In this document: one piece after another, positions 11,033 to 30,132 of the stretch
How positions within the stretch are numbered: the first letter of the stretch is position 1
Layout: each line of letters opens with the position of its first letter
Origin: Verrucomicrobiota bacterium
GTDB taxonomy: Bacteria > Verrucomicrobiota > Verrucomicrobiia > Opitutales > T3Sed10-336
Direction: 5' to 3'
NCBI GenBank assembly: GCA_003565135.1
Contig: PXDC01000476.1
Coordinates: 1 to 32,522 of the forward strand
DNA length: 32,522 nt
Translations under genes and position numbers: made by a program
Notes under the pieces: model-generated
The model's input: the letters and a program-made list of their open reading frames with translations, nothing else
Databases searched by the model: none
What the model was told of the DNA's origin: nothing

Positions 11033-12919
11033 ATGAGATTCGTACCCAAATCCCGATTCCCACGATGGATACCGCTGCTGGCAACCCTTCCGATTCTCGG
11101 GGCCTGTGCGCCGGATGATGTCACCCGGGATAACGACCGTCGCTCGCCGGCGGAACTTTCCTACGTCGCCCCGGGCGATTTTGACGACTATTACCTGTTC
11201 TATTCCGGCGGCCATTCCGGCAATGTTTTTGTGGCCGGGATTCCGTCCATGCGGCACATCGTGACGATACCGGTATTCACCAAATACCCGGGCAAGGGTT
11301 ACGGTTACGATGACGTTACGAAGGAGTTGCTGGGAGACTACACCTGGGGCGATATCCACCACCCGGCGCTTTCCAAGACCGACGGCCTTTACGACGGGCG
11401 CTGGCTTTTTGTAAACGACAATGCCCATAACCGGGTCGCGCGCATCGACCTGCGCGATTTCAAGGTCAAGGAGATCCTCGGGCCGATTCCGAATACGAGC
11501 GGGAATCACGGTTCCTCCTTCGTCACCGAAAACACCGAGTACATCATGGGGGGAACCCGGTTCTCGGCACCGATACCAAAAGGGACGTACGCCCATCCGG
11601 AAGAATACGAGGATGCGTTCAACGGCGTCATCACGGGTATCCGGGTCGATCCGGACACGGGCGACATGAGCGTGGGGTGGCAGGTTCTGACTCCCCCGTT
11701 TAACTGGGATCTTTCGTCCACGGGGAAGGGCCCGAGCAGCGGATGGGCCTTCTTTACCTCGTACAACACCGAGATGGCTCACACGGTACTCGAAGCCAAC
11801 GCCAGTCAGCTCGATCGCGACCTCGGCGCGGCGGTCAATTGGCGCGCGGCGGAACAGGCGGTCGCCGACGGGAACTATACGGAGATCGACGGCGTCCCGG
11901 TGATCGATCCGGCCGAGGTGCCGGGCGTGATGTACTTTCTGCCCATCGCCAAGTCTCCCCACGGAATGGACACCGATCCGTCCGGGCAATGGATCGTGGC
12001 GGGCGGCAAGCTCGACCCGACCGCGGGGGTTTACAGCTTCGAGAAAATTCAGGCCGCGATCGAGGCCGAGGACTTTGAGGATGAAAAGCGGGGGGTTCCG
12101 GTCCTCAATTTCGACAGCGTCCTGGAGGGGCAGGTGCCGGTCGGGCTGGGCCCGCTTCACACGCAGTTCGACGGGCGAGGCAATGCTTACACCTCCATGT
12201 TCATCGACTCCCAGGTCGCCAAATGGCGGTTGCCGCCCTGGAGCGACGAAGAGAAAGCCGACCTCGAAAGTGTGGTGGTCGATAAAATCGATGTCCATTA
12301 TAACATCGGGCACCTTGTGGTCGGGGGCAGCGATACGCGGGAACCCTACGGGAACTGGCTCGTGGCCATGAACAAGCATGCCGTCGGACGTCACATCAAA
12401 GTTGGCCCGGGCATTCCCGAAACCAGTCAGCTTATCGATATCACGGGCGACGAAATGCGCATGGTCAAGGAGGCCTTCACCGATAAGGAACCTCATTTCG
12501 CCCAGATCCTGAGAGCCGACAAGATCGATCCCATCGAAGTCTACCCCCGGGCCGAAAACGAGCACCCGCACGCGATCTGGAGTTTCGACGACGCCGAGAT
12601 TGTACGCAACGGAGATTCGGTGGAGGTGAAGATGATCTCCATTCGCAGCCGGTTTGTTCCGGACATCGTCGATGTGCGGCAGGGGGACACGGTCACCTTT
12701 CACATCACGAACACCGAGCAAACGCCCGGTCTGACCCACGGCTTCGGTATTGGGGAAATGGATATCAGCGGCAATATCGATCCGGGAGAAACCAAAAGTT
12801 TTACGGTGGAAATGGATAAACCCGGCGTTTTCCCGTTTTACTGCACCGTTTTCTGCTCAGCGCTCCACCAGGAAATGCAGGGTTACATTTCCGTCCGGCC
12901 GGCGGAAGAAACCGAATAG
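11033..12919 (+). CDS. nosZ: Nitrous-oxide reductase (Sec-type, probable clade II), predicted lipoprotein
   Basis: YYLFYSGGHSGNVFVAGIPSMRHIVTIPVF, DIHHPALSKTDGLYDGRWLFVNDNAHNRVARIDL, HGMDTDPSGQW, CuA motif FYCTVFCSALHQEMQGY; no twin-arginine motif; PILGAC lipobox. Confidence 0.95.
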   Translation: MRFVPKSRFPRWIPLLATLPILGACAPDDVTRDNDRRSPAELSYVAPGDFDDYYLFYSGGHSGNVFVAGIPSMRHIVTIPVFTKYPGKGYGYDDVTKELLGDYTWGDIHHPALSKTDGLYDGRWLFVNDNAHNRVARIDLRDFKVKEILGPIPNTSGNHGSSFVTENTEYIMGGTRFSAPIPKGTYAHPEEYEDAFNGVITGIRVDPDTGDMSVGWQVLTPPFNWDLSSTGKGPSSGWAFFTSYNTEMAHTVLEANASQLDRDLGAAVNWRAAEQAVADGNYTEIDGVPVIDPAEVPGVMYFLPIAKSPHGMDTDPSGQWIVAGGKLDPTAGVYSFEKIQAAIEAEDFEDEKRGVPVLNFDSVLEGQVPVGLGPLHTQFDGRGNAYTSMFIDSQVAKWRLPPWSDEEKADLESVVVDKIDVHYNIGHLVVGGSDTREPYGNWLVAMNKHAVGRHIKVGPGIPETSQLIDITGDEMRMVKEAFTDKEPHFAQILRADKIDPIEVYPRAENEHPHAIWSFDDAEIVRNGDSVEVKMISIRSRFVPDIVDVRQGDTVTFHITNTEQTPGLTHGFGIGEMDISGNIDPGETKSFTVEMDKPGVFPFYCTVFCSALHQEMQGYISVRPAEETE

Positions 12920-12932
12920 TCCGTTCAGAGAT

Positions 12933-12980
12933 GCCACCCGCGCCGGGGATCCCGCCATAAGGGAGCCTCCCGCGGGTGGC
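12933..12980 (+). terminator. Stem-loop after nosZ
   Basis: GCCACCCGCG (12933-12942) perfectly complementary to CGCGGGTGGC (12971-12980), followed by CCTTTAAAA. Confidence 0.45.
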
Positions 12981-13136
12981 CCTTTAAAACGTGATGACCG
13001 GAGATTGGCAAGGGCCCGGAACTGTGATTGCGGGGGGTGCGCCGGCAGACATCGATTGTTGTCGTGATGATTTGCATGGCGGCTCGTTCCGGTTAGATTC
13101 CTAGGCAGCGATTCACATCCGAAACCGACGAACCAT

Positions 13137-13781
13137 TTGAACGTGCAGGGATTTCTCAAAAAACAGGAGCTTTTTTTACGGAAACCGCTCAACGTCTGGT
13201 CGCGACTCTGCCTGGTTCTGGCGGCCGTTTGTCTGGGCGCGTCTTTCTTTTTTCCGCTTTGGGAGATCCGTCTGGTCGCTCCGCAGTATCGCGACGGCCT
13301 GGAGCTCTACATATACTCCTATCAACTGCAGGCCGGCAACGACGGGCAGCACCTCGATGAAATCAACCTGTTGAATCATTACATCGGGATGCAGCCGATT
13401 CGTGAGGCTGATTTCGTGGAAATGACCTGGATTCCGTTCGCCTTCGGAATCTTCATCCTTTTGTCCCTGCGAGGCGTCGTCTTCGGACGCATGGGCAATG
13501 TCGTCGATCTCTTTGTGCTGTTTGCCTATTTCGGGCTTTTTTCGATGGGCAATTTTTATTACCGGCTTTATTCCTACGGGCACAATCTCGACCCCAGGGC
13601 GCCTATGACGATCGAGCCGTTTACCCCGGTGCTGTTCGGGAAAAACCGGATCGCCAATTTCACCCAGTTCAGTTACCCCGACACCGGAAGTTATTTTCTC
13701 ATGGCGTTTGGCCTATTGATCCTGGTGGCGGGTGTGTTGTCCCTCCGGGAAAAGCCGATTGTCCCCGAGGAAGCCGTTTGA
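13137..13781 (+). CDS. Integral membrane protein in nos cluster (possible NosB-like)
   Basis: Several hydrophobic segments; DEINLLNHYIGMQPI motif in a loop; sits between nosZ and nosD. ORF-track start codon at 13137 is TTG-like in context, so the exact start is uncertain. Confidence 0.65.
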   Translation: MNVQGFLKKQELFLRKPLNVWSRLCLVLAAVCLGASFFFPLWEIRLVAPQYRDGLELYIYSYQLQAGNDGQHLDEINLLNHYIGMQPIREADFVEMTWIPFAFGIFILLSLRGVVFGRMGNVVDLFVLFAYFGLFSMGNFYYRLYSYGHNLDPRAPMTIEPFTPVLFGKNRIANFTQFSYPDTGSYFLMAFGLLILVAGVLSLREKPIVPEEAV

Positions 13782-13833
13782 TGAGACCGGCGCAAACACG
13801 AATGTTTTGCCTGTAGCCATTGATGGAGGAAAA

Positions 13834-15168
13834 ATGAGATTCACCCGGAGCACCTGGCTTATTCTCACGGGGATCGCCCTGGCGGTTTTTCCACCGGTCA
13901 ACCTGGCGGCCGAGACGCTTTCCCTGCAGGAACGCATTGATCGTGCCGCCCCGGGGGATGAGATCAGGGTCGACGGCGGCGTGCATCACGGGGAGCTGGT
14001 TGTCGATCGCCCGGTTATCCTGACCGGTATCAACCGTCCGCACCTGAAGGGTGGCCGCGAAGGTCACACCGTCGCAATCCGGGCCGAAAACGTAACTCTG
14101 CGCGGTTTCCGAATCTCGGGCTCGGGACTCAATCTCTCCCGCGACCACGCCGCGGTTCATATCAGTGCCGCCGGTGCCCGGATTCTCGAAAACGAGATCG
14201 CCGATTCGCTGCACGGTGTTTATGTGCGCGGAGTTGATGGAGTCCGGATCGAGGGGAACCGCATACGCGGGATCGAAGAAACCGAGGCCGAAAACATCGG
14301 CGCCGTGGTTACCGGAACCGTAGGGGCGGGCGATATGTGCTCGGTCTCCCGCGACCGTCGGGGTAACGGGATTCATTTCTGGAAGTCCAGCGGAAATACG
14401 GTACGGGGCAACGAAGTTTCCGGCGTGCGCGACGGCATTTATTTCTCCTTTACACGGCAGAGCCGGGTGGAGAACAACCTTGTGTATGACGCGCGTTACG
14501 GGCTTCACTACATGTATTCGGATAATAATTACCTTTCCGGCAATACCTTTACGAATAATTCGGCCGGGGCCGCGCTTATGTTTTCCAAAGAGGTGGTTTT
14601 GCGGGAAAACAATTTTGTCGAGAACCGCGGTCCGCGGGCGTACGGCCTGCTCCTGCACAACGTCGACCGGTCGACCCTCGAAAACAACCGCATGAAACAC
14701 AACCGGATCGGTTATTACATGCAGAACAGCCACGCCAATACCGCCCGTCGGAATGATTTTGTCCGCAATTACATCGGACTTCGACTCACATCGAGCTCCA
14801 CGGGCAACCTTTTTGCCCACAACCAGGTCGGGCATAACCTGCACAATATCGATTTGGCCGGCCGCGACAATCGCAATGACTGGCAGGAGAATGGAAAGGG
14901 AAACCGCTGGCTCGATTCGCCCACCCTCGACCTCGACCGGGATGGCGTAAGCGAACTTCCGCATCGCGAGGTCGACCTGTTCGGCCCGTCCCGGGACGAT
15001 TTTCCCTTTATTGCATTTCTCTCGGAAAGTCCCGGCATGAAGGTTCTGCGCTTCGCGCTGCAGCGGGCGCCGGTTCCCGGCATTCACTTTATCACGGATA
15101 CCCGTCCCCTCGCGCCGTCGCGGCGCGGCCCCGATCCCTCCGAGATCGAAGCCGGCAGCGCCCGATGA
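13834..15168 (+). CDS. nosD: NosD copper-assembly beta-helix protein
   Basis: Signal peptide; LSLQERIDRAAPGDEIRVDGGVHHGELVVDRPVILTGINRP; repeated parallel beta-helix units; GGAGGAAAA upstream of ATG 13834. Confidence 0.9.
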   Translation: MRFTRSTWLILTGIALAVFPPVNLAAETLSLQERIDRAAPGDEIRVDGGVHHGELVVDRPVILTGINRPHLKGGREGHTVAIRAENVTLRGFRISGSGLNLSRDHAAVHISAAGARILENEIADSLHGVYVRGVDGVRIEGNRIRGIEETEAENIGAVVTGTVGAGDMCSVSRDRRGNGIHFWKSSGNTVRGNEVSGVRDGIYFSFTRQSRVENNLVYDARYGLHYMYSDNNYLSGNTFTNNSAGAALMFSKEVVLRENNFVENRGPRAYGLLLHNVDRSTLENNRMKHNRIGYYMQNSHANTARRNDFVRNYIGLRLTSSSTGNLFAHNQVGHNLHNIDLAGRDNRNDWQENGKGNRWLDSPTLDLDRDGVSELPHREVDLFGPSRDDFPFIAFLSESPGMKVLRFALQRAPVPGIHFITDTRPLAPSRRGPDPSEIEAGSAR

Positions 15169-15842
15169 TCGAGATCCGCAAGCTGAACAAGACCTACGGT
15201 GAGACCGTCGTCCTTCGCGGGGCTGACCTCGTGGTGGAGGATGGGAGGATCACCTTCCTGGTGGGGGACAACGGGGCGGGGAAATCGACCACGCTCAAGA
15301 TCCTGGCCGGCCTGGTCCGGCCCACCTCCGTGGAACGCCTGGAGATAAACGGGATAGACGCCCGGCGCAGGCGTAAAGCCCAGGTCTCCACAGCCTATCT
15401 CCCGCAGGGAGCCTCGTTCCACCACGCCATGACCCCCGCGCAGACCCTTGATTTTTACGGCCGCCTCCGCGGCGTTTCCCGTCGCCGGATCCGAGGGCTT
15501 ACGGAGACGTTCGCGCTCGAAGCCTTCGCCGGCCAACCGGTAGGGGAGCTTTCCGGCGGTATGGTCCAGCGGCTCGCGTTGGCCGTAATGTTCCTGCCCG
15601 ACGCTCCCGTTCTCCTGGCCGACGAACCTGTGGCCAGCCTCGATCCCGATTGGCGGGATCGCCTTCAGGAGCTTCTTCGGGAGGAAGCGGCGAGAGGAAA
15701 GACGGTCCTGGTCGCGACGCACTTCCTGGATGAGTGGCGCACGACCGGGGATCGCGTTGTGGTTTGTCGCGACGGTGTTATCCGGCCGCATCCTTTGTCC
15801 CGGGACGAGGGGGACGACCGGGGGAAAGTAGGCTCGTCATGA
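15165..15842 (+). CDS. nosF: NosF ABC transporter ATP-binding protein
   Basis: Walker A GDNGAGKSTT, LSGGMVQRLALAVMFLPDAPVLLADEPVASLDP; ATGA overlap with nosD. Confidence 0.9.
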   Translation: MIEIRKLNKTYGETVVLRGADLVVEDGRITFLVGDNGAGKSTTLKILAGLVRPTSVERLEINGIDARRRRKAQVSTAYLPQGASFHHAMTPAQTLDFYGRLRGVSRRRIRGLTETFALEAFAGQPVGELSGGMVQRLALAVMFLPDAPVLLADEPVASLDPDWRDRLQELLREEAARGKTVLVATHFLDEWRTTGDRVVVCRDGVIRPHPLSRDEGDDRGKVGSS

Positions 15843-16624
15843 CATCCCTTCGTTCCACCTTCGTCGCCTTCTTCCGCCGCGAGGTTCGCACCGGCTGCCG
15901 GAACCGTTTTTTGCACGGCTTTACCCTTCTCAGCCTTCTGGGCGGAATCGGTATTGCCGTCTTCGCGCCTTCGGGCGGTTCGATTCCCTTCTTGCAGCTT
16001 CAGGTGATCCTGTACCTGATTCCGCTTTTCGGGGTGCTTATCGGTGTCAGTTCGGCTCATGGTGAGTTGGAGGAAAGGGGAGTGCTCCTGAGCCAGCCGA
16101 TCTCGCGGTTCGCCTGGGTGGGCGGTAAAGCCGCCGCTCTCGTTTTAACCGCCGGAACCATCCTGGCGCTGGTTTTTGTTCCGGCCCTTTTTGCCGGCGC
16201 AAGATTCTGGCCCACGGCCGGGCTTTGGGCACAGGGAGCGTCGCTCGCGGCGGTGTTTCTTCTTCTCGGTCTGGCGGTCGGCTTTTCCACCGGCGACCGG
16301 GTCCGGGGCCTTATTTACGCGGTGCTCTTCTGGTTGTTTTTGCTCGTCGGATTCGACCTCCTCGCCTTCGGTGGGGCGCAGGCCCCTTTTTTCCAGCGGG
16401 CTCCGGTCCTTTGGCTCGCCATCCTCCTGTTCAACCCGGTGGACGCGGTTCGCGTGGCCGCCCTGTTTCAACTCGAGGAGATCCCGTTTCAGGTCCCGGG
16501 GGATGCGCCATTCCTGGCCTTTTGGATCGATCACCTCTTGATTTGGAGCTTTTTCCTGGCGGTTGTTTGGATAGCGGGCCTTCTGGCCTGGAGCCGTTAC
16601 CGCCTCGATCGTTACCCGGTGTAA
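15839..16624 (+). CDS. nosY: NosY ABC transporter permease
   Basis: Start at ATG 15839 overlapping nosF stop; multi-helix membrane protein with SSAHGELEERGVLLSQPISRFAWVGGKAAAL. Confidence 0.9.
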   Translation: MTSLRSTFVAFFRREVRTGCRNRFLHGFTLLSLLGGIGIAVFAPSGGSIPFLQLQVILYLIPLFGVLIGVSSAHGELEERGVLLSQPISRFAWVGGKAAALVLTAGTILALVFVPALFAGARFWPTAGLWAQGASLAAVFLLLGLAVGFSTGDRVRGLIYAVLFWLFLLVGFDLLAFGGAQAPFFQRAPVLWLAILLFNPVDAVRVAALFQLEEIPFQVPGDAPFLAFWIDHLLIWSFFLAVVWIAGLLAWSRYRLDRYPV

Positions 16625-17228: not shown

Positions 17229-17371
17229 TCATGTCACGTTTGGATGCGGCGAGTCAACGCCTTAATTTTCCCGGGTCGTCTGATTTGACTCGGTGCCGGA
17301 ACAACGTCTGAATGTAATAGCTTTTTTTCTAAATGGCGACCTGCGCCATGATTGACCTCGCACCATTCCGA

Positions 17372-18682
17372 ATGAACACGTTCTCCCCTCTTTTTCTGTT
17401 TTCGTTTGCATTCCTGCTGCCCCCGGTGGCCTTCGCCCTGTCGGGCGATACCCGGACGGTTCCCATCGGCGAGGGATGGGCGCGGAATTCGGTGAACGCG
17501 GTGATCTTCCGCACCCATGCCGTGACATCCTACCGGGATCGGCAATACGCGGCTTATTATGACGCCGAAGGCCAGGTCGTTCTCGCCCGGCGGAAGCTGG
17601 GATCGGACCAATGGGAGATTCACAACACAGGGTACCAGGGAAACGTGCGGGACGCACACAATGCCATTTGTATCGCTGTCGACGGCGAGGGATACCTGCA
17701 TCTCTCCTGGGACCACCACGGGCATCCGTTGACGTACAGGCGGAGTCTGGAACCGGAATCGTTTGAATTTTCCGAACCCCTCTCCATGACCGGGGAGTTC
17801 GAGAACCGGGTGACCTACCCCGAGTTTTTCAATCTGGACGACGGCGGGTTCGTGTTCATGTATCGGGACGGGGGTTCGGGAAACGGGCGGATTCTCCTGA
17901 ACCGGTACGATACCGCGACGCAGGAATGGAGCCCGCGGCAACATCCGCTGATCGACGGCGAGGGTGAGCGAAACGCCTATACCAACCAGATCGCCATCGA
18001 CGGCGAGGGTCGCTGGCACCTGTCGTGGACCTGGCGTGAGACCTCGAATGTCGCCACCAACCACGACATCGGTTACGCCGTCTCGCCGGATGAGGGACGG
18101 ACCTGGTACCGTTCGGACGGCCGGCCGTACGATCTGCCCATAACCCGGGACGAGACCGAAGTGGTGCGGGAGATTCCCCAGAACAGTGAGCTCATAAACC
18201 AGTGTTCCATGGCGGTCGATTCCCGCGGACATCCCATGATCGCGACCTACTGGCGGCCGGAAGGGGAGGAGGTGCCGCAGTTTCACCTTGTCTGGTACGA
18301 CGGAGAGACGTGGCACACCAGCCGAGTGACCGAGCGCACGACCCCTTTTCGCCTGGCGGGCGGCGGAACCCGGCGCATTCCGATCTCCCGTCCGAAACTG
18401 GCGGTGGATGACGATGACCGGGTATTCATGCTTTACCGCGACGATGAACGGGGCGGACGGATTTCGGTGGCGATAAGTGAACGTCCCGGCCGCGATGATT
18501 GGGTGCACCGTGATCTCAGCGCCGAATCGGTGGGGTTGTGGGAGCCCAACTACGACGTTTCAATCTGGGAACGGAAGCGGGAGTTGCACATATTCAAGCA
18601 ATTTGTCGGCCAGGGGCAGCGGGAAACCCTGGAGGACGTGCCACCCCAGACGGTTTCGATCCTGGAGTGGAAACCCGAATAG
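17372..18682 (+). CDS. BNR-repeat (BNR_4-like) secreted protein
   Basis: Signal peptide MNTFSPLFLFSFAFLLPPVAFA; RDAHNAICIAVDGEGYLHLSWDHHGHPLTYRRS; FEFSEPLSMTGEFENRVTYPEFFNLDDGGFVFMYRDGGSGNGR. Confidence 0.8.
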   Translation: MNTFSPLFLFSFAFLLPPVAFALSGDTRTVPIGEGWARNSVNAVIFRTHAVTSYRDRQYAAYYDAEGQVVLARRKLGSDQWEIHNTGYQGNVRDAHNAICIAVDGEGYLHLSWDHHGHPLTYRRSLEPESFEFSEPLSMTGEFENRVTYPEFFNLDDGGFVFMYRDGGSGNGRILLNRYDTATQEWSPRQHPLIDGEGERNAYTNQIAIDGEGRWHLSWTWRETSNVATNHDIGYAVSPDEGRTWYRSDGRPYDLPITRDETEVVREIPQNSELINQCSMAVDSRGHPMIATYWRPEGEEVPQFHLVWYDGETWHTSRVTERTTPFRLAGGGTRRIPISRPKLAVDDDDRVFMLYRDDERGGRISVAISERPGRDDWVHRDLSAESVGLWEPNYDVSIWERKRELHIFKQFVGQGQRETLEDVPPQTVSILEWKPE

Positions 18683-18754: not shown

Positions 18755-20629
18755 TCATTTTTCGACCGGTATGACAATGCCGCGCATGATGATGTTCTGG
18801 GCGAAGATAAAGATGATGATCGTCGGAATCGACGCGATTAGGACCGAGGCGAAGATCCCTCCCATGGAGGCGGTTTCCTGGAACTGGTAGAGCCAGACGC
18901 TCAATAACCACATCTCCTGACTGGGCGCCACCAGCAGTGCGTAAAGGAACAGGGTGTAGGCACTGTTAAAAGCCTGGAGAGCCACCACGGCGAGGATCGG
19001 CTTGCTCAAGGCCATGGTGATCTGAAAGAAGATCCGGATTTCCGAAGCGCCATCGATGGTGGCCGCTTCGTAAAGCTCCGTGGGAAGGGAGTCGAAGAAT
19101 CCCTTCAACAGGAATATGAGGTACCCGTTGGCCACGGTCGGAAGAACCAGCGCCGCGAACGTATTCATCATGTTCAGGTTCTGCAGGATGATAAAGGTCG
19201 GAATGAGGGTGACCATGGGTGGAAAAGCCATGGTGGCCATCAACAGCAGAAGGATCTTGTAGGAACCGGGGAGTTTGAAACGGGAGAGGGAATACGCCGC
19301 CAGCGGATTGACCAGCAGGGCGAGGCTGACGGAAAGCGTGCAGAAAATAACCGTGTTGAGGAAGGCCCGTCCGCGCAGAAAAAGGGCGTCCGCCACGTTG
19401 ATGAAATTGCGGACCGAATACGTCCAGCGCAGGGAACCGGTATGGGCCAGGACGTGATCGAGCTCGAGTTCCGCCATGGGCGGAAAGACATCCTGGTAGT
19501 CGGTGTAATCAGTGCCGTACCTCTCGTTCAGGTTCTCGATATTTCCGTACGTGTCCTCCAGCCATTCGCGGAAGGCGAACTCGGGACCGTAGAGGCGGTA
19601 GGCATCCGGGTCGAGCTCGACAAAAAAGTCGTGATAATCGGCCCGCCGGCTTCCGCTGAGCCACTCGCCGGCGGGAAGGGAGATCTCCGCAAAATCGGTT
19701 TTATCCGCGGCCCAGGCGGTATTCAGTTCGTCAATCGTCCCGTAAAGATCCTTCAGGTAGTCACGGTAATCCCCGTCGTCCACGTCGACCAGGAGCACGA
19801 AGCTCGGGTTGATCTCATCCCGGACGAACTCGAGCCATTCGGTTCGGAATTCCGGCTGGCTCCCGGGCGGTGCGCGGGCCGGCAGGCGAAAGTCGGCATA
19901 GGAATCGATGTGGAGGCCTTCGTGGGCTTCGTTGAAAGCGTGGGTGTCGCTCTGGCCGTAAACGGGATAAACCATCGTTTCGAGGAAGAACCCGGTTAGG
20001 GACACGACGGAACGTTCCGCCAGGGGAGCCTCCTCCAGCATCCGGAAATACTCCTGGAACAAGGGGTCGTCCGGAACATCGAACCGGAACGAGAGCCAGT
20101 CGGTCGGCGGAATAACCAGGTTGATCCAGTTGTTGATGACACCCCCCGTGGCCCGGTTATAGGCACTGAGGTCGCCGTCGAAGCGATCCGCGATCCGGTT
20201 TCGCAGCTCCCGCAGGGCTTCGGGGGTGGTTCGGTCGCCGCGGATCCCACCCAGCAGTTGCCAATGACGGGGCAGGGAATTTTCCTCGTAATAGGCGTGG
20301 AAGTCGTCCACGCGTTCCCGGTTGATCCCTTCCGGCACGGCGGCGTTTTCGAACGAGAAATTCTGCTGCAGGTGTGCCTGGTTCAACTCGTTAACCCGCT
20401 GGTTGTACTTGGTCTCGAGGAATTTCCGGTAAAGGACTTCATCCTCGAACAGGAAGCTGGGGATCAGGTCGAGGTCCGTTTCGTCCATTTCGCTCCGAAG
20501 GGATCCGGAAACCATGATGGCGAAAGGATAGATCATGGTTACCGCGCCCAGGGTCAGGATCGCGAATATGGCGGCGATGGTCAGTTTTCCCTGGACGGTT
20601 CGGGCCTGGACTTGGGAGATGATCGGCAT
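18755..20629 (-). CDS. MalG-like carbohydrate ABC transporter permease with large extracytoplasmic insertion
   Basis: TM1 near N-terminus, C-terminal permease domain with EAA motif LYEAATIDGASEIRIFFQITMALSKPILA; ~375 aa inserted between TM1 and TM2. Confidence 0.9.
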   Translation of the reverse strand: MPIISQVQARTVQGKLTIAAIFAILTLGAVTMIYPFAIMVSGSLRSEMDETDLDLIPSFLFEDEVLYRKFLETKYNQRVNELNQAHLQQNFSFENAAVPEGINRERVDDFHAYYEENSLPRHWQLLGGIRGDRTTPEALRELRNRIADRFDGDLSAYNRATGGVINNWINLVIPPTDWLSFRFDVPDDPLFQEYFRMLEEAPLAERSVVSLTGFFLETMVYPVYGQSDTHAFNEAHEGLHIDSYADFRLPARAPPGSQPEFRTEWLEFVRDEINPSFVLLVDVDDGDYRDYLKDLYGTIDELNTAWAADKTDFAEISLPAGEWLSGSRRADYHDFFVELDPDAYRLYGPEFAFREWLEDTYGNIENLNERYGTDYTDYQDVFPPMAELELDHVLAHTGSLRWTYSVRNFINVADALFLRGRAFLNTVIFCTLSVSLALLVNPLAAYSLSRFKLPGSYKILLLLMATMAFPPMVTLIPTFIILQNLNMMNTFAALVLPTVANGYLIFLLKGFFDSLPTELYEAATIDGASEIRIFFQITMALSKPILAVVALQAFNSAYTLFLYALLVAPSQEMWLLSVWLYQFQETASMGGIFASVLIASIPTIIIFIFAQNIIMRGIVIPVEK

Positions 20630-20706: not shown

Positions 20707-23481
20707 CTAGCCACCGGCGCGGAATTCGGCGTTGGAAAGAAGTTTCAACTGATAGGCGGTAAAGGCGATAAGCAGGGCGCCCATCATCCAGGCCATGGCG
20801 GTGCCTTCGCCGAAGTTCAGCTCGACGAAGGTGCGGAAGAAAATCTCCAGCGAAAGAATGGTGGTGGCTTCGCCCGGTCCGCCCCCGGTCATGATGAGAA
20901 TGAACTCCTCGCCACCGCGGAAAGCGACAATGACCGCCCAGACAAACTGGATTACGATCAGGTATTTCAATCGCGGCAGGATAATGTAAAACACTTTGTG
21001 CCAGTTGCCCGCGCCGTCGATTTCGGCCGCCTCATAAAGGTCGTTGGGAACGCTCTTCAGGGCCGCCAGGTAAAGGATGCAGCCGGGGCCCATGCTTGCC
21101 CAGATCATCGGAACCACCACGCAGAGCATGGCGATATCCGGAGACTGCGTCCACCGGAGCGGCTCCAGGTCGAAAGTGCCGACGACGTTTCCCAGAAGGG
21201 CGAATGCGGCCCCCAGGTTTTCGTTGCGCGCGACGTCGAACAATGGGCTCAGGGTCAGTCCCAGGAAGGCGAGTCCTACCACCCAAAGGGTAATCTTCAA
21301 CCCCCGCGGCATCTCTCCCAGCCGGATAGGCAGGGCGAACAGCAGGTAGATGATCGAGCCCCAGATGCCGAGTGCCCCGAGCTTGAGCAACGTTGCTCCG
21401 CCGGGGCCGAGATTGTTGAGACTGAGCAGCAGTTGGTTGAGCACCCCCTGTTCGCTCGGATCGTAGAGCTGCCGCCACAGGAACATAACCACCACCCCGA
21501 TGAGTACGGCCGGGAGGTAATAGATGGTACGAAAGATATATTTGGCCGTATTGGTGGGAACTTCCTGCAAAAGGATTGCCAGGGCGATCGGGGGCCAGAA
21601 ACCGAGGCAGATGGAAAGGGTGACGAAGTAAAAAGTGCGCAGCAGCGCCCGCCAGAACTGTTCGTCGAAAAGCGTGTTGGCGAAGTTATCCACACCCACC
21701 CATAAACTGTCCTGAACCACGCGGTAATCCATGAACGAAATGCTGGCTCCTCCCATGATAAGGGGGAAGTACTGCCAGGTCAGAACCAGCCCGATTCCGG
21801 GAATCAACAGGAGGTATCCCCAGGCGTACCGGCGCCAGTTCTGCTGTCCGGTCACCGGTGCGCTGACCCTGGAAAAATAGCGCCAGACATGAGCCATTCC
21901 CAGGCTGAAGACGATGGCGATGATCAGGATGACGCCGGCGCCGATCCAGCGACGTTGCTGCATCTGTTCGGGGGGGATCAGGCCGAGAACCTTCAAATTG
22001 AACTCCTCTACCGTCTCCTCCAGGTATCCCTGGATGACGCTGATGGCTTCGTCGTCGGTCATGCCGGCGAAATCGTCTTCCAGCGCACGGTTTATGGGAC
22101 GGGACATCCACCGGTAGATGTTCATGGTTTCGGCCCCGTAGGGTTCCGGAACGCCGTTTTCCATGGCCGTCTGAAAGGCTTCGCGCCATCCCGGCGGAAC
22201 CCGTCGCAAGACGCGTTCATACCCGAACCGCTCCAGGTACTCGGGATTGACGAACATGCCGTAACCGTTCTCCACGAAAATTCGCGTCCGCAGGCGGTGG
22301 GCCTCATCGCTGGTGATGTACCAGAGGTAACGCATCACCGCCAGCTTCTGTTCCGGTTTGGAACCGCTGAAAATGCCCATCATACGGGCGTTAACCTCGC
22401 TGCCCCGTAAACCTTCGGGCGTCACCGGCACCGGGGCGATTCCGACCTGCTGCGGATTGATGGCCGCCAGCATCTGCTCGTCCAGGTAGCTGAACTGCAT
22501 GCCGACGTTCCCGCGCTCCCATTCGAGGTCGCGAGGGCCGGTGGTCAGCCCGGCGGCACCGTTGATGACCCGGCCGTCATCCCGTGTAAAGGGCTCCCGA
22601 ATGAGGCGCCAGAAAAAATAGATCCCTTCCGCCGCCTCCCGGCTGTCGAAAGCCGCCCGCCAGTTGCCGTCTTCGTCCTGTTCCTGAGCGCGGGCGCCTT
22701 TCGAGACCATGAACGAGTAGGCCTGGTAGCTGGTGCCGTGTCCGGCTCCGAAGAGCATCCCGTACTGCCTCCGCTCGGGCACACGGAGGATGCGGGCGAA
22801 CTCGATCATCTCATCCCAGTTTTGGGGCGGCCTCTCGGGATTCAATCCGGCTTCACTGAACACATCCTTGCGGTAAAGCAGGGCTTGCACGAGGTTGCTC
22901 GTGGGGATGGCCCAGACATGCTTCTCATCGCTTCGTCCGCTGAGGTCTTCGCGGTAGACAACCGGCCAACTCGGTTCCGGCACCCGTTCGCGGATCAACT
23001 CCAGGGCTTCTTCGATTTCCCCGGGGGTCGGGTCGGCCAGCCAATTGTCCCGTTCGTCGGTCCGTCGTACTCGTTCGTCGTCGCTGCGGATGCGGGCCAG
23101 CATGACCTCGAGGGGTTCGAGGAAGCCCTGCTCGATGTAGGTGGAGGACTGGCGGAAATTTACGTAGATCGCGTGGGGTGGGATCCCGGCCGAGATAGCC
23201 ATGAGCGGACCGACGTCCATCTCGGAGGTTCCGCCGACAATCGGCATGGTGAACGGTTCGATGTCGTATTGAGGGTACTGATCGTAGAACGAACGCAGGA
23301 CCTCCCTCTGGGTGATGGCGACAATGTCCGTGTTGGTCGGGTTGGGCAGCCCATCCGCCCGAAAAGTAACGGTTCTTCCCTCGTCCCCCCGAAGGGAGGT
23401 CGTCGGGCCGGGAATCGACGTCAGCAGAGCCGAAAGCAGAATGAGAAAGGCAGTCAGTTGTATTCCGGCCCGGGTCGGCAT
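20707..23481 (-). CDS. Fusion of family-1 extracellular solute-binding protein and MalF-like ABC permease
   Basis: N-terminal signal peptide and SBP (RDNWLADPTPG..., LYRKDVFSEAGLNPERPPQNWDEMIEFARIL); C-terminal permease (YAWGYLLLIPGIGLVLTWQYFPLIMGGAS..., EAA motif DLYEAAEIDGAGNWHKVFYIILPRL). Confidence 0.9.
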   Translation of the reverse strand: MPTRAGIQLTAFLILLSALLTSIPGPTTSLRGDEGRTVTFRADGLPNPTNTDIVAITQREVLRSFYDQYPQYDIEPFTMPIVGGTSEMDVGPLMAISAGIPPHAIYVNFRQSSTYIEQGFLEPLEVMLARIRSDDERVRRTDERDNWLADPTPGEIEEALELIRERVPEPSWPVVYREDLSGRSDEKHVWAIPTSNLVQALLYRKDVFSEAGLNPERPPQNWDEMIEFARILRVPERRQYGMLFGAGHGTSYQAYSFMVSKGARAQEQDEDGNWRAAFDSREAAEGIYFFWRLIREPFTRDDGRVINGAAGLTTGPRDLEWERGNVGMQFSYLDEQMLAAINPQQVGIAPVPVTPEGLRGSEVNARMMGIFSGSKPEQKLAVMRYLWYITSDEAHRLRTRIFVENGYGMFVNPEYLERFGYERVLRRVPPGWREAFQTAMENGVPEPYGAETMNIYRWMSRPINRALEDDFAGMTDDEAISVIQGYLEETVEEFNLKVLGLIPPEQMQQRRWIGAGVILIIAIVFSLGMAHVWRYFSRVSAPVTGQQNWRRYAWGYLLLIPGIGLVLTWQYFPLIMGGASISFMDYRVVQDSLWVGVDNFANTLFDEQFWRALLRTFYFVTLSICLGFWPPIALAILLQEVPTNTAKYIFRTIYYLPAVLIGVVVMFLWRQLYDPSEQGVLNQLLLSLNNLGPGGATLLKLGALGIWGSIIYLLFALPIRLGEMPRGLKITLWVVGLAFLGLTLSPLFDVARNENLGAAFALLGNVVGTFDLEPLRWTQSPDIAMLCVVVPMIWASMGPGCILYLAALKSVPNDLYEAAEIDGAGNWHKVFYIILPRLKYLIVIQFVWAVIVAFRGGEEFILIMTGGGPGEATTILSLEIFFRTFVELNFGEGTAMAWMMGALLIAFTAYQLKLLSNAEFRAGG

Positions 23482-23675: not shown

Positions 23676-25127
23676 TCAATCGCCCGGGAGGGATTCGTTG
23701 AAATGACCCGTTTCCGCCGGTTTCCAGGTATCTCCTCCGTCCGGCGACACCAGGACCATCCGGCTGTAAAAGCGGTGCTGATCGGAAATTTCCCGCAATG
23801 TGCGGTCCAGGTGGCTGAAGGACAGGTACAAACTCCCCTGACGGTCCACGGCCAATCGTTGATTGAAGATGCTGTAAATCGCCCGTTCCGGAACGACCAG
23901 GAGCTGCGCTTCGCTCCAGGGTTCGCCCTTCCGTTTTCTCTGGTAGGACAGGCCCGCGAACTGGTCGCGCTCGGCATCCGCCAGGTGCGGGTAGTCGGCA
24001 ATGCCCCGGCGCCAGTGGCGAAAAACGAGGTGCAGGGTGTCGTCCGGGTCGCAAACCAGGGAAACGTACGTCTGACCCCCGCGCTCCTCACCCGATACCG
24101 CGATCCAGCCGTCCGCCAGTACCGGTTCGGGATCCGTCCATCCGTCCTCGATGCTGTTCGGCTCCAGCGATCGGGCGTAATAAAAGCTCTGCCCGTGATG
24201 GGCGCCGGTGACTACGTGGAGGTAACCCTCGCTGTCGAACACAACCCCCGGCATGTTGTGGGAATTGTTGGCGGGCCGGTTCGGCGCGACGAACACCGGC
24301 CGGCTGACTTCGCGGGTCGCGTGGTCGTAGGTGGCTCCAAAGGTGGGCGATTCGACGGCGTTTTCCTCGTCGGTCACCTCCGCCCAGAAAAAATGGGTCC
24401 GGCCGTCCCGTGTGGCGGCGAACGGCGAGCCGCCGGAGTGTTGACCGAGCGCGACCAGCATGTCACTGACTTTGACCGGTTCGGGAACCACGACCTGATC
24501 GTCTTCCCAATAGGGCTGGAAAACGTAGAGGTTGTGCAGGCGTGCCCAGCGATCCGGATGATCGTCGTAGCGTTCGCGGACCATGAAAAACGGGGGCCCG
24601 GGAATGTCGTTGTGGCCCGCACGGTGTTCCACCGGGCGCGAGTTGGCCGGGAGTTCCACCGTGGACACGGTTTCCCAATAGTCCGTTGAATAAAGGAGCA
24701 CGTGCGGCCGCGAGCCGTCCTCCAGGCGGATAACGAGGAAGGTGTAGGACCGGTCTTGTTCGTCAAAGATGACCCGTGGCTCCACCAGTCCGCCGGCGTA
24801 AACGGTTTCCCGGAAATTCGGGTAAGCTTCTTTCAGCGGACCGATGAGGTCTTTTTCCACCCACTCACCGCCCCGCAGCGTGTGAATATAGGCGGTTTCG
24901 TGGATGTGGGTGCTCCGGCTGCGGATATAGGGACGGTTATGCCGGTCGAATCCCGGAATGTTGCGGGTGTACTCCGGTTCGTAGCCGAAGAGTTCGGCCG
25001 GTTTCTTCTCCGGCTCCAGAACAAAGGGTGGGGGGGGCGTCCCGGTGAGCTGGTCCGAGCAGCCGGGAAGGGCCGCCAGGGATGACAGGGATAAGAGGAC
25101 GGGAATCAGGATGGTGCGTCGTTTCAT
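23676..25127 (-). CDS. BNR-repeat (BNR_4-like) predicted lipoprotein
   Basis: MKRRTILIPVLLSLSSLAALPGCSD lipobox; GHNDIPGPPFFMVRERYDD, HSGGSPFAATRDGRTHFFWAE, NNSHNMPGVVFDSEGYLHVVTGAHHGQSFYYARS. Confidence 0.75.
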   Translation of the reverse strand: MKRRTILIPVLLSLSSLAALPGCSDQLTGTPPPPFVLEPEKKPAELFGYEPEYTRNIPGFDRHNRPYIRSRSTHIHETAYIHTLRGGEWVEKDLIGPLKEAYPNFRETVYAGGLVEPRVIFDEQDRSYTFLVIRLEDGSRPHVLLYSTDYWETVSTVELPANSRPVEHRAGHNDIPGPPFFMVRERYDDHPDRWARLHNLYVFQPYWEDDQVVVPEPVKVSDMLVALGQHSGGSPFAATRDGRTHFFWAEVTDEENAVESPTFGATYDHATREVSRPVFVAPNRPANNSHNMPGVVFDSEGYLHVVTGAHHGQSFYYARSLEPNSIEDGWTDPEPVLADGWIAVSGEERGGQTYVSLVCDPDDTLHLVFRHWRRGIADYPHLADAERDQFAGLSYQRKRKGEPWSEAQLLVVPERAIYSIFNQRLAVDRQGSLYLSFSHLDRTLREISDQHRFYSRMVLVSPDGGDTWKPAETGHFNESLPGD

Positions 25128-25403
25128 AGGTTGATTGGGAAGCGTAAATCCGGCGGGCCGTGTTCCAATAAAAAAATGCCCGTCCCCTACCTGAGAAAAC
25201 AAAGGGAAGGCGAGGTTCCGGTCTTTGGAGCCGCGAAGCACAGGGCGAACGCCGATTACTCCCGTGCCGGCTCCCGGTGCCGTGACGAAGCCGGAAAACG
25301 GTCGGAGATCACCGGATTTTCGAGGCGGGCGACGTATTTCCCGCCACCTGCCTCCATGATGGGAATAATCAGAATGCTACTCGGTTAAGGATCTTTCTAT
25401 TCA

Positions 25404-25590: not shown

Positions 25591-28548
25591 CTAAAGTCTT
25601 TCCACGCGGAGACGCATGAAGCGCTTCGACGTGCCGGCAACCGGCGTATTATCGCGGACCGTGACACGCTCGGTTTCCCCGAGTGTGGAAACCTCCTCTT
25701 CGGTGTATTCATCTCCTGAATACCAATCCGAAAGGTTTTCGGAGACTTCGACAACAAAACGGATGTCCGGCGTGGGGATGGGGCGTTCGTAAGTCAGCGA
25801 AAGCCGCCCCTCGGAAATTTCCGCAACCGGAAGGTCGCCCGGTTGGGCCGGTTGCCACGGGTCGAGGTCGAGGGCGTACTTGACGAGATTCGGTATCCCG
25901 TCACCGGCCGGGGACGCCAGGTCGGCTCCGGTTTCAGGATCGTTGCGTTCCTCCTCCGAGAAGTTTTCCGCCCACCAGGTGTCGATGGGGCGCGCCGCGA
26001 TCGCCAGGACGGCCGTGCTTTCGCGACCGGCGCTGTAGGCGGTTCCGTGCCTGAGGCGGAGGCTGACTTCGGTGGCCTCCGGGATAAACGCCCCGTCCAC
26101 CAGGCGGACCGGCAGGCTGGCGGATGCGCGGTTTACCGATATGCCGACTGTTTCCGGCATGGCTTCCACGTCGATAAGGTCGGCGCCGGGCCCGGTCACC
26201 TCGTACTCGACCCAAATGCGCCCGTCGCGGATGCCCCGACGCTCGAGAGCCCACGTGAACGAGTCGTCTTCCGACGGGACCAGAACTCCGTTCGTTTCCC
26301 CGAAGCTGACGATCGATATCAGTCCGCCCGAACCGCGATCCGGGTCGAGTCGGTCTTCGAGTTGTTTCAGGTAGAGGCTCTGCGGGTTTACGTGTTCGCC
26401 CTGGGATATCCAATAACCGTCTTCGGCGTAGTCCGGAAACGATCCCGCCCATTTGGTGCCTTTCACCCCTATGGCCCAGTTCTGGGCCGTGGGCGGATTC
26501 TGGTTGGCAATGCGGTTGGCCGAGGAGTTCCAGATGACGTGATTCGCGCCCGCCCATCCGTGCCCGGAGCCGAAATTGAGGCGGTTCTGCACGTTGATAT
26601 CCCGGTGCGGAATCTCAATGTTATCGTACAGGGCGCCCGTTGCCCAACGGTGGTGCGGGCCGGTATCGGAATAGGAGTGCTCGCCGCGACTCTGGAGAAA
26701 TACATTGGGGCCATGGGTGCGGCTGCTGGTGCCGTAATCGTGCCGCGCGTAGCGGGCGTAGCAGCGTTGGACCAGGCAAAGCTGCCCTCCCTGTACGTAG
26801 AAAGGGTAACGCCGGCTTCCGCTGATCGTGGAGATCGGGTCAAGCAGCGCGCTGTCCTCCACGGTGATCCACTTCGATCGTCGCTCCATCAGGACCGTTC
26901 CGAATCCGAAATGGACACCGGTCAACTCCCGTGCCCAGGCGTTCTGTACCCGGTCGAATACGACGAATGTCCAGGCGTGATCCTCGTCGTCCGGGGAACC
27001 GTCGTAAGCCGAAACCGACCGGATGTTTTCGATGCCGACCTGCGAGATCCGTTCCGGAAAGGTGTAGGTGTAGATCCACCCGCCGCCGTACTGATCTTCC
27101 AGGGCGTTCATGACCGGCGCATCGATGGTGATTTCGTTGCCGTCGATGGCCGTGATGACCCGGTCGTACTGGATATCGTACTGCCCGGCCTGCCACTGGG
27201 TGATCGGCAGGCCGTCCGATCGTTCCGGGATCTCGTCCATCCCGATGGCCGAAATCCATTCCTCGGTGCTGGGACGGTAGACGATGATGGTGTCACCGAC
27301 CTCGAGGCCGCTCGCGTCGTCGACGCGGAAGCTGCGTGCCCCGACCGGAACATAGGCGTCGGTGATGATCCGGTTGCCGGAAGTGCGATTCCAGGTTCCG
27401 GCAGTGGCGCCGACCTCGATCAGGGTGCGACGGATGGTTCCGGTGGCGTGGATTACGGTTCCATCCTCCCCGCGTCCTTCGCCCCGCAGAACGATGCCGC
27501 TGGAGGAAATGCGCAGCGATCCCTCGACTTCGTACGCGCCCCGTTTCAGGAGTACCGCTCCGCGAAATCCGTCCTGGTCCTCGGGAATGACGGCCACGGT
27601 GTCGATGGCCGCCTGGATCCGTTCGGTGTCGTCTCCGGCTTCAGGTTCGAGGGTGACCATGACCGGGACGTCCTCCGGGATGGGTACCCCGCCCCCCATG
27701 TACCCGGCGCTGGAGAAGTCCGGAATGCGGTTGCCGGCGTGATCTTTCGTGTACGCGAGACGGCCGTCCTCGCCGGGCACCGCGTTAGGGGGCTCTTCCT
27801 CTTCGTATTCCGGCTCGGTCACGGTTACCTCGTCGATGTCGAAGGTGACCACCGATTCGCTGTCCGGGTTGACATTGAAGGAATGAATGGGACCGACCCC
27901 GGAGGAGGAGCGGGCAAAGACGTAACTGGAGATAACCGATTCGCCGTTTATCCAGACCGAGGCCGTGCCGGGCGACAGAGACCGCTCCGTGCCGTCGGGC
28001 GCCGGGTAAACGATCCGGGTGCCGGCGTTGTTGACAAAAACTTCGAAATGCCGGACTTCGTCGTTGGAGCCGTAGTAAGCCTCCGGGTTGACGCCGCGAA
28101 TGGTGGCGGCGCTGGGCCGGAGGGAGAGAACGTGAGCCCGGTGGTTTCCGTCGCCGGCGTAAAAGTTGATGTTCAGCCAGCGGTGGTCGTTTTCCGTGGA
28201 TCGTCCCACAAAGTCGAAACTGAGCCGAACCACCTCGCTGGGCGAGTCGAGACGGGCGTAAACATTGAAATTTCCCGCGTCGATCCCCCGCAGGAAGCGG
28301 TTCCCGGTGCCGGCACCGAATAATTCGTCCGGATCGTCCGCGATTTTCAGCTCTCCGTGACCGGTCGAAACCGAATGCCATGGTCCGCCCTGGCCCTGTG
28401 TTTGCGGTAATCCGTCCAGCGGCGCGCCGTTGAAGTCGTCGTGGAAAAGAACCGTTTCGGCCGCCAGGACCGGGGACAGAATCAACGAGACGATGGCCGG
28501 CAACCAGTTCCTGTGGAAGCTCTTGGGAACGAATAGGCGAGGATCCAT
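25591..28548 (-). CDS. Large secreted right-handed beta-helix protein, candidate polysaccharide lyase/hydrolase
   Basis: Signal peptide; N-terminal LamG-like/jelly-roll segment; GDDTERIQAAIDTV...FRGAVLLKRGAYEVEGSLRISSSGIVLRGEGRGEDGTVIHATG; C-terminal RFVVEVSENLSDWYSG module. Confidence 0.75.
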   Translation of the reverse strand: MDPRLFVPKSFHRNWLPAIVSLILSPVLAAETVLFHDDFNGAPLDGLPQTQGQGGPWHSVSTGHGELKIADDPDELFGAGTGNRFLRGIDAGNFNVYARLDSPSEVVRLSFDFVGRSTENDHRWLNINFYAGDGNHRAHVLSLRPSAATIRGVNPEAYYGSNDEVRHFEVFVNNAGTRIVYPAPDGTERSLSPGTASVWINGESVISSYVFARSSSGVGPIHSFNVNPDSESVVTFDIDEVTVTEPEYEEEEPPNAVPGEDGRLAYTKDHAGNRIPDFSSAGYMGGGVPIPEDVPVMVTLEPEAGDDTERIQAAIDTVAVIPEDQDGFRGAVLLKRGAYEVEGSLRISSSGIVLRGEGRGEDGTVIHATGTIRRTLIEVGATAGTWNRTSGNRIITDAYVPVGARSFRVDDASGLEVGDTIIVYRPSTEEWISAIGMDEIPERSDGLPITQWQAGQYDIQYDRVITAIDGNEITIDAPVMNALEDQYGGGWIYTYTFPERISQVGIENIRSVSAYDGSPDDEDHAWTFVVFDRVQNAWARELTGVHFGFGTVLMERRSKWITVEDSALLDPISTISGSRRYPFYVQGGQLCLVQRCYARYARHDYGTSSRTHGPNVFLQSRGEHSYSDTGPHHRWATGALYDNIEIPHRDINVQNRLNFGSGHGWAGANHVIWNSSANRIANQNPPTAQNWAIGVKGTKWAGSFPDYAEDGYWISQGEHVNPQSLYLKQLEDRLDPDRGSGGLISIVSFGETNGVLVPSEDDSFTWALERRGIRDGRIWVEYEVTGPGADLIDVEAMPETVGISVNRASASLPVRLVDGAFIPEATEVSLRLRHGTAYSAGRESTAVLAIAARPIDTWWAENFSEEERNDPETGADLASPAGDGIPNLVKYALDLDPWQPAQPGDLPVAEISEGRLSLTYERPIPTPDIRFVVEVSENLSDWYSGDEYTEEEVSTLGETERVTVRDNTPVAGTSKRFMRLRVERL

Positions 28549-28659
28549 GGGTTTAGCTTATCACAAAACAGAGACGAAATTCCGATAGAATTCGGTTTGG
28601 GGTCACCTTTTTTCTGTTTCGGGATGCTTCGTGCTTGTGAATCCGGTGCGCCCGGACTT

Positions 28660-30132
28660 ATGCAAGCTCCTGTGAAGAACCGCCCGCCGCACGTCATCAT
28701 ACTCATGGCCGATCAACTGCGCGCCGATTTTATCGGCGAACACACTCCGAATATTTGCGCCCTGATGAACGAGGGCACTTCGTTTTCACGGGCGTATTGC
28801 GCGTCACCTCTCTGTGTGCCGGCCCGCGGAGCTTTTTTTACCGGCTGTTATCCGAACCGAAACGGTTCCCTCATCAATCCCTGGCGTGAGGCCGATCGAT
28901 CGCATGGCTACGTCCGCCCCGAGGTGCCGACGCTTTATTCGCTCATGGAGGACAAGTGGGACAGCTGGCACGCGGGAAAGCAGCACCTTTTTCAGGAGGG
29001 GAAACTGGATGAGGATCCGGACAGTAAAACCCGCTGGCTCGGGAGGCGCAGGATGCAGGATTACGGCGATTTCGTGCGTGCCGCGGGGGTGCGCCCACCG
29101 GGGGGAGCGAGGTACCGTGGGCTGGTTCCGGAAATGGTGGGCGGCCGCGCGACCCATCCTCGATGGTACAGTATCCCGGCGACGGGACGTTACGAACACG
29201 ACTATAGGTATTTTTTCGATGGATACATAAATTCCCGCGGAGTGGAGGCCATTGACGGGCGCGACCCGGCTCGGCCGTTTCTGCTCAACCTGATGTATCT
29301 CGCCCCGCACCCGCCGCTGGAAATCCCGGAGCCATGGTACTCCCGCGTAAAGTCCGTCGAACTGGCGGACAACGTGGCTCGGTGGGACACGGGACAGTCG
29401 CCCCTGCAGTTGTACAACCTGCCGGGTTTCATCGGTTCCGGATACAGTCGCGACGACTGGTGGGAAATCTGGCGGGTATACGCCGGGCTGGTCAGCCTCC
29501 TGGACGATGCCATTGGCGAGATCCTGGGGAAACTCAAGGCGGAAGGGCTCTACGACGATGCCCTGATCGTTTTTACGGCCGACCACGGTGAAATGCTGGG
29601 GTCGCACTGTGCCTGGCAGAAAATGTGCATGTACCAGGAGTCAACCCGGGTTCCCCTCAGCATCAAGTTGCCCGCGGGAGCCCGGCAGGTTTCCGCTTCG
29701 GACGAACTCGTCAGCCATGTCGACGTTCTGCCCACGCTTTGCGATTTCCTCGGTATGGAACCGCCGGCAAATCTTTCCGGCGTTTCCCTGCGGTCGGTGG
29801 TGGAGGACGGAACCCCGCTGGAACGGGAGGCGGTTTTTATCCAGGCGGACGGTAACGGGGCCCGGGGGAATTTCCAGCGCTGTGTGGTGCGGGGCGATCA
29901 CAAACTTATTGTCGACCTGTTCAAGGACGAGGTGTTCTTCGAACTGTACAACGTGGTCGACGACCCGGAGGAGCAATTCAACCTCGCGTGGGAGGAAGGC
30001 GATCGGGTGGCCGTTCTGCTCGAGCTTCTGACCGCGGAAATGCGGGCCGGCCATGATTTGATCGAAATTCCGGCGGACGCCTACGCCCGCTTCCGGGATG
30101 ATTACGCCGAGTTGCGGCCTAGCCGAACGTAA
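28660..30132 (+). CDS. Sulfatase (Cys-type formylglycine motif)
   Basis: PPHVIILMADQLRADFIGEHTPNICALMNEGTSFSRAYCASPLCVPARGAFFTGCYPNRNG; C-V-P-A-R motif; VFTADHGEMLGSH. Confidence 0.95.
   Translation: MQAPVKNRPPHVIILMADQLRADFIGEHTPNICALMNEGTSFSRAYCASPLCVPARGAFFTGCYPNRNGSLINPWREADRSHGYVRPEVPTLYSLMEDKWDSWHAGKQHLFQEGKLDEDPDSKTRWLGRRRMQDYGDFVRAAGVRPPGGARYRGLVPEMVGGRATHPRWYSIPATGRYEHDYRYFFDGYINSRGVEAIDGRDPARPFLLNLMYLAPHPPLEIPEPWYSRVKSVELADNVARWDTGQSPLQLYNLPGFIGSGYSRDDWWEIWRVYAGLVSLLDDAIGEILGKLKAEGLYDDALIVFTADHGEMLGSHCAWQKMCMYQESTRVPLSIKLPAGARQVSASDELVSHVDVLPTLCDFLGMEPPANLSGVSLRSVVEDGTPLEREAVFIQADGNGARGNFQRCVVRGDHKLIVDLFKDEVFFELYNVVDDPEEQFNLAWEEGDRVAVLLELLTAEMRAGHDLIEIPADAYARFRDDYAELRPSRT

Follow-up and report, generated by a model that had tools for sequence, protein, structure and literature searches.

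The stretch of DNA analysed here (the window) comprises 32,522 nucleotides of contig PXDC01000476.1 from a Verrucomicrobiota bacterium. An open reading frame on its reverse strand (18755-20629), beginning with ATG, encodes a MalG/UgpE-type ABC transporter permease of 624 aa. As proposed in a first-pass annotation made from the sequence, this permease carries a large extracytoplasmic insert built from repeats. Toward the C-terminus the protein is a conventional permease (PF00528, aa 459-617, E=4.8e-12), and the NCBIfam scores of the protein, 81 bits for UgpE and 65 bits for MalG (both below the equivalog cut-offs), place it nearer to UgpE. The first transmembrane helix, TM1 (aa 16-34; 20528-20584, reverse strand), was located by hydropathy and is conserved in the family alignment. 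The permease core extends from TM2 to the C-terminus (aa 422-624; 18758-19366, reverse strand), with TM2 at aa 422-440 by hydropathy. Between TM1 and TM2 lies the insert of about 380 aa with five tandem repeats (aa 44-421; 19367-20500, reverse strand); the span assigned to it earlier, 19365-20490, corresponds to aa 47-421 and falls between the same two helices. The core contains the EAA coupling motif ELYEAATIDGASEIRIFFQITMA (aa 518-540; 19010-19078, reverse strand), which was read from the sequence and is the ATPase contact site in type I importers. Counting three transmembrane helices back from the cytoplasmic EAA loop, the insert would be situated outside the membrane. It contains no Cys, and 72 Asp/Glu stand against 34 Lys/Arg (counted over aa 42-421).

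The gene 77 nt upstream (20707-23481, reverse strand) encodes a protein of 924 aa in which a substrate-binding protein (SBP; PF01547, aa 181-394) is fused to the N-terminus of a MalF/UgpA-type permease (PF00528, aa 736-908). A second permease and an SBP are thus encoded alongside the first, an arrangement conserved in relatives, and the 624-aa permease itself combines a BPD_transp_1 domain with an EAA motif (ELYEAATIDGA, aa 518-528), as expected for the CUT1 class. The two genes would then encode the membrane components of an ABC importer of the CUT1 (MalFG-like) type with a tethered SBP. Because the longest loop of the partner after the SBP measures 42 aa, the fusion has no equivalent of the MalF loop P2. 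An apparently additional pair of hydrophobic segments relative to the standard MalF core is seen at aa ~701-742 of the fusion. MalK/UgpC-type ATPases scored above the NCBIfam cut-off in 11 of the 12 related genomes that were searched; in the window's own genome, which is 82% complete, the best UgpC-type match reached 298 bits (cut-off 432), and no match to the OB_MalK domain was found.

Five homologous repeats of about 58-73 aa each make up the insert: repeat 1 (aa 44-99, core aa 67-99; 20333-20500), repeat 2 (aa 104-175, core aa 142-174; 20105-20320), repeat 3, which is degenerate here (aa 188-250, core about aa 223-250; 19880-20068), repeat 4 (aa 259-319, core aa 288-319; 19673-19855) and repeat 5, the best match to glycoside hydrolase family GH42 (aa 327-384, core aa 353-384; 19478-19651), all on the reverse strand. 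A unit HMM iterated over 64 relatives yielded the 32-residue core YRKFLEAKYGDIEALNRAYGTDYASFEDVPLP, and the units of the relatives are mostly spaced at 65-79 aa. For scoring the insert of the window, the HMM was built without close relatives, and 2000 shuffles of the insert, among which the top single match was 5.4 bits, served as the null. Matches were obtained at aa 353-384 (44.1 bits), 288-319 (32.8 bits), 67-86 (16.5 bits) and 147-162 (9.2 bits); four units are therefore individually significant, whereas repeat 3 (1.9 bits) is not significant by itself. These four are the units named in the first-pass annotation (aa ~67, ~142, ~288 and ~353), and they are real. Its count of four was replaced by five, as it had overlooked repeat 3, the position of which (aa ~223-250) is clear in relatives (E down to 2e-14). 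In hhalign comparisons with the other repeats, probabilities were 91-97% for repeat 1, 91-98% for repeat 2 and 92-98% for repeat 3. Position-specific profiles for the five positions (47 proteins) matched in every pair, with probabilities of 91-99.5% over 33-58 columns and E=5e-22 for repeat 4 versus repeat 5, and we regard the repeats as significant. Where the longer matches hold, the layout is a helix (D)W..F, a short strand, a helix FR.FL..KYG, a helix I..LN..YGT and an extended segment S(F/W)..I..LP.

An AF2 model of the window permease (4 sequences) had a pLDDT of 49.6 over the whole protein. Its better-modelled parts are predicted as ordered helices and not as disorder: repeat 4 shows a helix (aa 259-272), a strand (aa 278-280) and two helices (aa 285-296 and 299-306) with pLDDT mostly 64-92, and repeat 5 (pLDDT mostly 63-84) has the same helix-strand-helix-helix order. 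The insert of a relative (L006; pLDDT 64.1, pTM 0.59) was modelled with the same helix pattern. Neither model, both being of low confidence, gave a global Foldseek match below E=0.001, and a TIM-barrel-like array was dropped as a candidate for this reason. Local Foldseek matches were to GH42, GH50, GH14 and GH167, with a superposition on 6PTM of 0.8 Å over 36 columns at 39% identity. The loop between TM1 and TM2 (P1) of the MalG-like subunit may bear five helical repeats arranged in tandem as a rod or an arch, each of them built on the fold of GH42 subdomain H as a structural brick rather than an active site.

The resemblance of the repeat motif to GH42-type beta-galactosidases, pointed out in the first-pass annotation, is significant. 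PF02449 matches the 624-aa permease with E=4.7e-12 (top stretch aa 352-387, corresponding to profile positions 153-193 of 376) and 24 of 25 homologues; the family profile matches GH42 structures 9ta3 (E=9e-6) and 1KWG (E=1.6e-4), and a profile of repeats 4-5 matches GH42 enzymes of the same phylum with E=1e-9 over 54 columns, running through the next DW.RF helix. The shared segment is subdomain H only, a helical excursion that follows barrel strand 4 and precedes the next helix, also present in GH164, with the helix-turn-helix FR.WL..YG.I..LN..(W/Y)GT in common over 36-58 aligned residues. The same-phylum GH42 enzymes contain one copy of the unit, as opposed to about 1-6 tandem copies in the permeases, and the permease insert is devoid of what surrounds the unit in the enzymes. 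A complete (beta/alpha)8 catalytic domain was not found, given the short Pfam stretch and the lack of a global fold match in the low-confidence models; the only Asn-Glu pairs of the insert (aa 80, 233 and 368) lie in or at the LN motif rather than ahead of the motif helix, where the acid/base Asn-Glu of GH42 follows strand 4. Trp182 of 1KWG, which we take to be the sugar-contacting residue of subdomain H toward the neighbouring subunit (numbering counted off the alignment), aligns with unit column 24, where Trp occurs in 0 of 231 permease units. With catalytic residues, barrel and sugar-contact Trp missing, the insert does not constitute an enzyme and is unlikely to contain a sugar site of the GH42 kind; a GH42 enzyme fused to a permease is ruled out as well, since the subdomain-H segment alone is present. 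The insert and GH42 thus appear to have structure but not enzyme chemistry in common, and either common descent or convergence would be compatible with the data. As Pfam labels the repeats 'beta-galactosidase', wrong annotations may arise.

The function proposed in the first-pass annotation was that of a glycan-recognition arm, in which the repeats would bind periplasmic poly- or oligosaccharides and hand these chains to the SBP. The genes of the window agree with such a role. Convergent with the permease gene is one (17333-18682, forward strand) for a homologue of structures 5MUK/5MVH (E=4.9e-141), which we take to be GH145-type, with a weaker match to L-rhamnose-alpha-1,4-D-glucuronate lyase (E=8.7e-35). 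A BNR-repeat protein is encoded upstream of the SBP fusion (23676-25241, reverse strand), and a sulfatase at 28597-30132 (forward strand). The BNR protein, the sulfatase and the rhamnose-type enzyme look like a glycan-degradation neighbourhood, and the flanking genes suggest sugar polymers of plant or algal walls for the organism of the window. The motif itself comes from sugar-active enzymes, aromatic positions are common in the permease units, and the tip of subdomain H in GH42 contacts sugar in the adjacent subunit (PMC10688820). However, in addition to the missing Trp, the Pfam search found no carbohydrate-binding module in the insert, and beside the relatives carbohydrate genes are no obvious conserved neighbours, several relatives adjoining housekeeping-type genes (names judged by eye); deducing the importer substrate from the neighbours was abandoned for the same reason. 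The position of the insert in loop P1, its co-occurrence with the fusion and its coevolution with the SBP, described below, point to the fused SBP instead. Glycan recognition is thus a possible function but an unlikely one, less supported than docking of the SBP; of the earlier reading, the permease, the repeat-built insert and the GH42-like motif stand, and the glycan-recognition function is not supported.

Of 390 Verrucomicrobiota genomes sampled, 131 (about a third) contain a relative of the insert permease (E<=1e-40), and a scan of viral contigs found none. Named relatives are from one MAG each of Opitutia, the PVC group and Lentisphaerae, and some of the carriers have small genomes in which other MalG-like permeases are few. 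Lengths as read range from 471 to 911 aa, with the N-terminus over-extended in a few proteins, and about 1-6 units are detectable, or zero in one case; unit counts differ both between and within the clades of the permease tree. Among the proteins examined in ten genomes, no tandem units were recognised outside permease-type proteins, other proteins giving short single-unit matches. One apparent non-permease array (L141, 731 aa) was rejected because its sequence reads as a divergent insert permease; it is one of several divergent paralogues per genome in G270 and G261, which suggests that the system has expanded in this lineage.

The variation in copy number, along with the degenerate repeat 3 of the window protein, would be expected if the loop had expanded neutrally by repeat duplication without any function. 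This is highly improbable, as the insert is kept throughout the family and its residues invariant in the alignment of 25 homologues include R140, W168, G213 and W265. Arrays of helical repeats that vary in copy number typically serve as scaffolds for protein binding, and the array might accordingly hold other periplasmic proteins, such as glycosidases or outer-membrane or cell-wall partners, in a channelled uptake complex. We regard this as improbable, because no conserved third gene accompanies the pair in the contexts listed and it is the SBP with which the insert covaries. In one family (f54), a PIF1-like helicase with an HRDC domain (L059, 1277-3406) lies between the fusion and the insert permease, and L058 has an ORF of similar size with a Walker-type N-terminus.

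The insert permease is nearly always accompanied by the SBP-permease fusion. Fusion-bearing genomes were defined by a match to the SBP-permease fusion at E<=1e-60 (n=31), and all 31 contain an insert permease: 29 according to the survey at E<=1e-40, one by an adjacent ORF (G107) and one by an 833-aa frame elsewhere in the genome (G140). This co-occurrence is partly expected, since most pairs are operonic; in two families (f47 and f57), however, the two genes are unlinked and nevertheless retained, the fusion being found elsewhere in 8 of 9 genomes tested. The partners of insert-less MalG paralogues measure 305-425 aa and are thus too short to carry an SBP.

Covariation was assessed from pairwise distances of 27 pairs, with insert and SBP compared after regression on both membrane domains and significance determined by permutation. 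The partial correlation between insert and SBP was 0.53 (linear), 0.50 (log), 0.47 (cubic) and 0.48 (rank) for the 27 pairs, 0.42 without the clade of the window and 0.46 for proteins of 590-680 aa only (p=0.001 in each of these six regressions, all of which were run on one data set). The corresponding values were 0.00 to 0.23 for the insert versus its own membrane domain and -0.25 to 0.12 versus the membrane domain of the partner. Insert divergence therefore follows the SBP rather than the membrane part of the same permease. This is support but not proof, because the sequences share ancestry and insert and SBP are both rapidly evolving soluble domains. The result also bears on the idea of a gate or cap, in which the array would shut the periplasmic mouth of the transporter to prevent leakage or futile ATP hydrolysis and would have little involvement in substrate contact or SBP specificity. 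The location of loop P1 at the pore entrance speaks for a gate, but a gate predicts divergence tracking the permease core, which was not observed, and we consider it very improbable.

In E. coli, MalE contacts loop P2 of MalF and loop P1 of MalG, according to the part of PMC3150292 that cites Daus 2007. As the insert here is located in P1 and the partner has no P2, docking of the SBP is the most economical reading: the array would dock the tethered SBP and place it over the translocation pore, as MalF-P2 and MalG-P1 do for free MalE. We assign a probability of about 50% to the insert being such a docking scaffold. Counting in favour are the 31/31 co-occurrence, the retention of both genes in f47 and f57, the short partners of insert-less MalG paralogues, the covariation, the absence of a P2-sized loop, the 0/231 Trp and the contact of subdomain H with the neighbouring chain in GH164, a family resembling GH42 (PMC7105311). 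On the other side, the AF2 models are weak (pLDDT 49.6 and 64.1), the covariation may partly reflect two fast-evolving soluble domains, and strict docking geometry would not obviously tolerate about 1-6 repeats with a similar partner. More tentatively, and with rather less confidence, one may suppose that GH42 subdomain H left its barrel, was duplicated in tandem, entered the P1 loop of a sugar permease and became a docking platform for a covalently tethered SBP, giving a type I architecture that is widespread in Verrucomicrobiota and replaces MalF-P2.

The system of the 624-aa permease is a new variant of the CUT1 importer; the first-pass annotation had suggested a distinct architecture, and no earlier description or characterisation of it was found in the open-access literature searched. 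With E. coli MalFGK2-MalE (CUT1, type I) it shares two BPD_transp_1 permeases with EAA motifs and, in 11 of 12 related genomes, MalK/UgpC-type ATPases, and it differs in the fusion of the SBP to the MalF-like subunit, the absence of MalF-P2 and the enlargement of MalG-P1 by about 380 aa of tandem repeats. Like MalF-P2, the insert is a large periplasmic addition to a CUT1 permease with a proposed role in SBP docking, but MalF-P2 lies between TM3 and TM4 of MalF and the predicted fold is different. GlnPQ and OpuA, in which substrate-binding domains are fused to a type I importer, likewise have the SBP covalently tethered to the permease (PMC8025302); they belong to other substrate families and have another permease type, and a repeat insert in a second permease subunit is not reported for them in the literature examined. 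Type I importers pose the mechanistic question of how a tethered SBP is kept above the pore, and a two-gene system with about 1-6 repeats provides a natural experiment on SBP positioning. The insert also exemplifies how part of a glycosidase can be reused as a structural repeat in tandem.

Two further regions of the window may be mentioned. A protein of 985 aa (25591-28548, reverse strand) has no significant family assignment and gives weak matches to designed SAKe proteins and DUF6298. A nitrous oxide reductase cluster (11033-16624, forward strand) comprises a NosZ-like protein (nos_propeller, cupredoxin) followed by NosD-, NosF- and NosY-like ORFs, for which the names rest on sequence alone. 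To this cluster, and not to the sugar importer, belongs the ABC ATPase encoded at 15165-15842.
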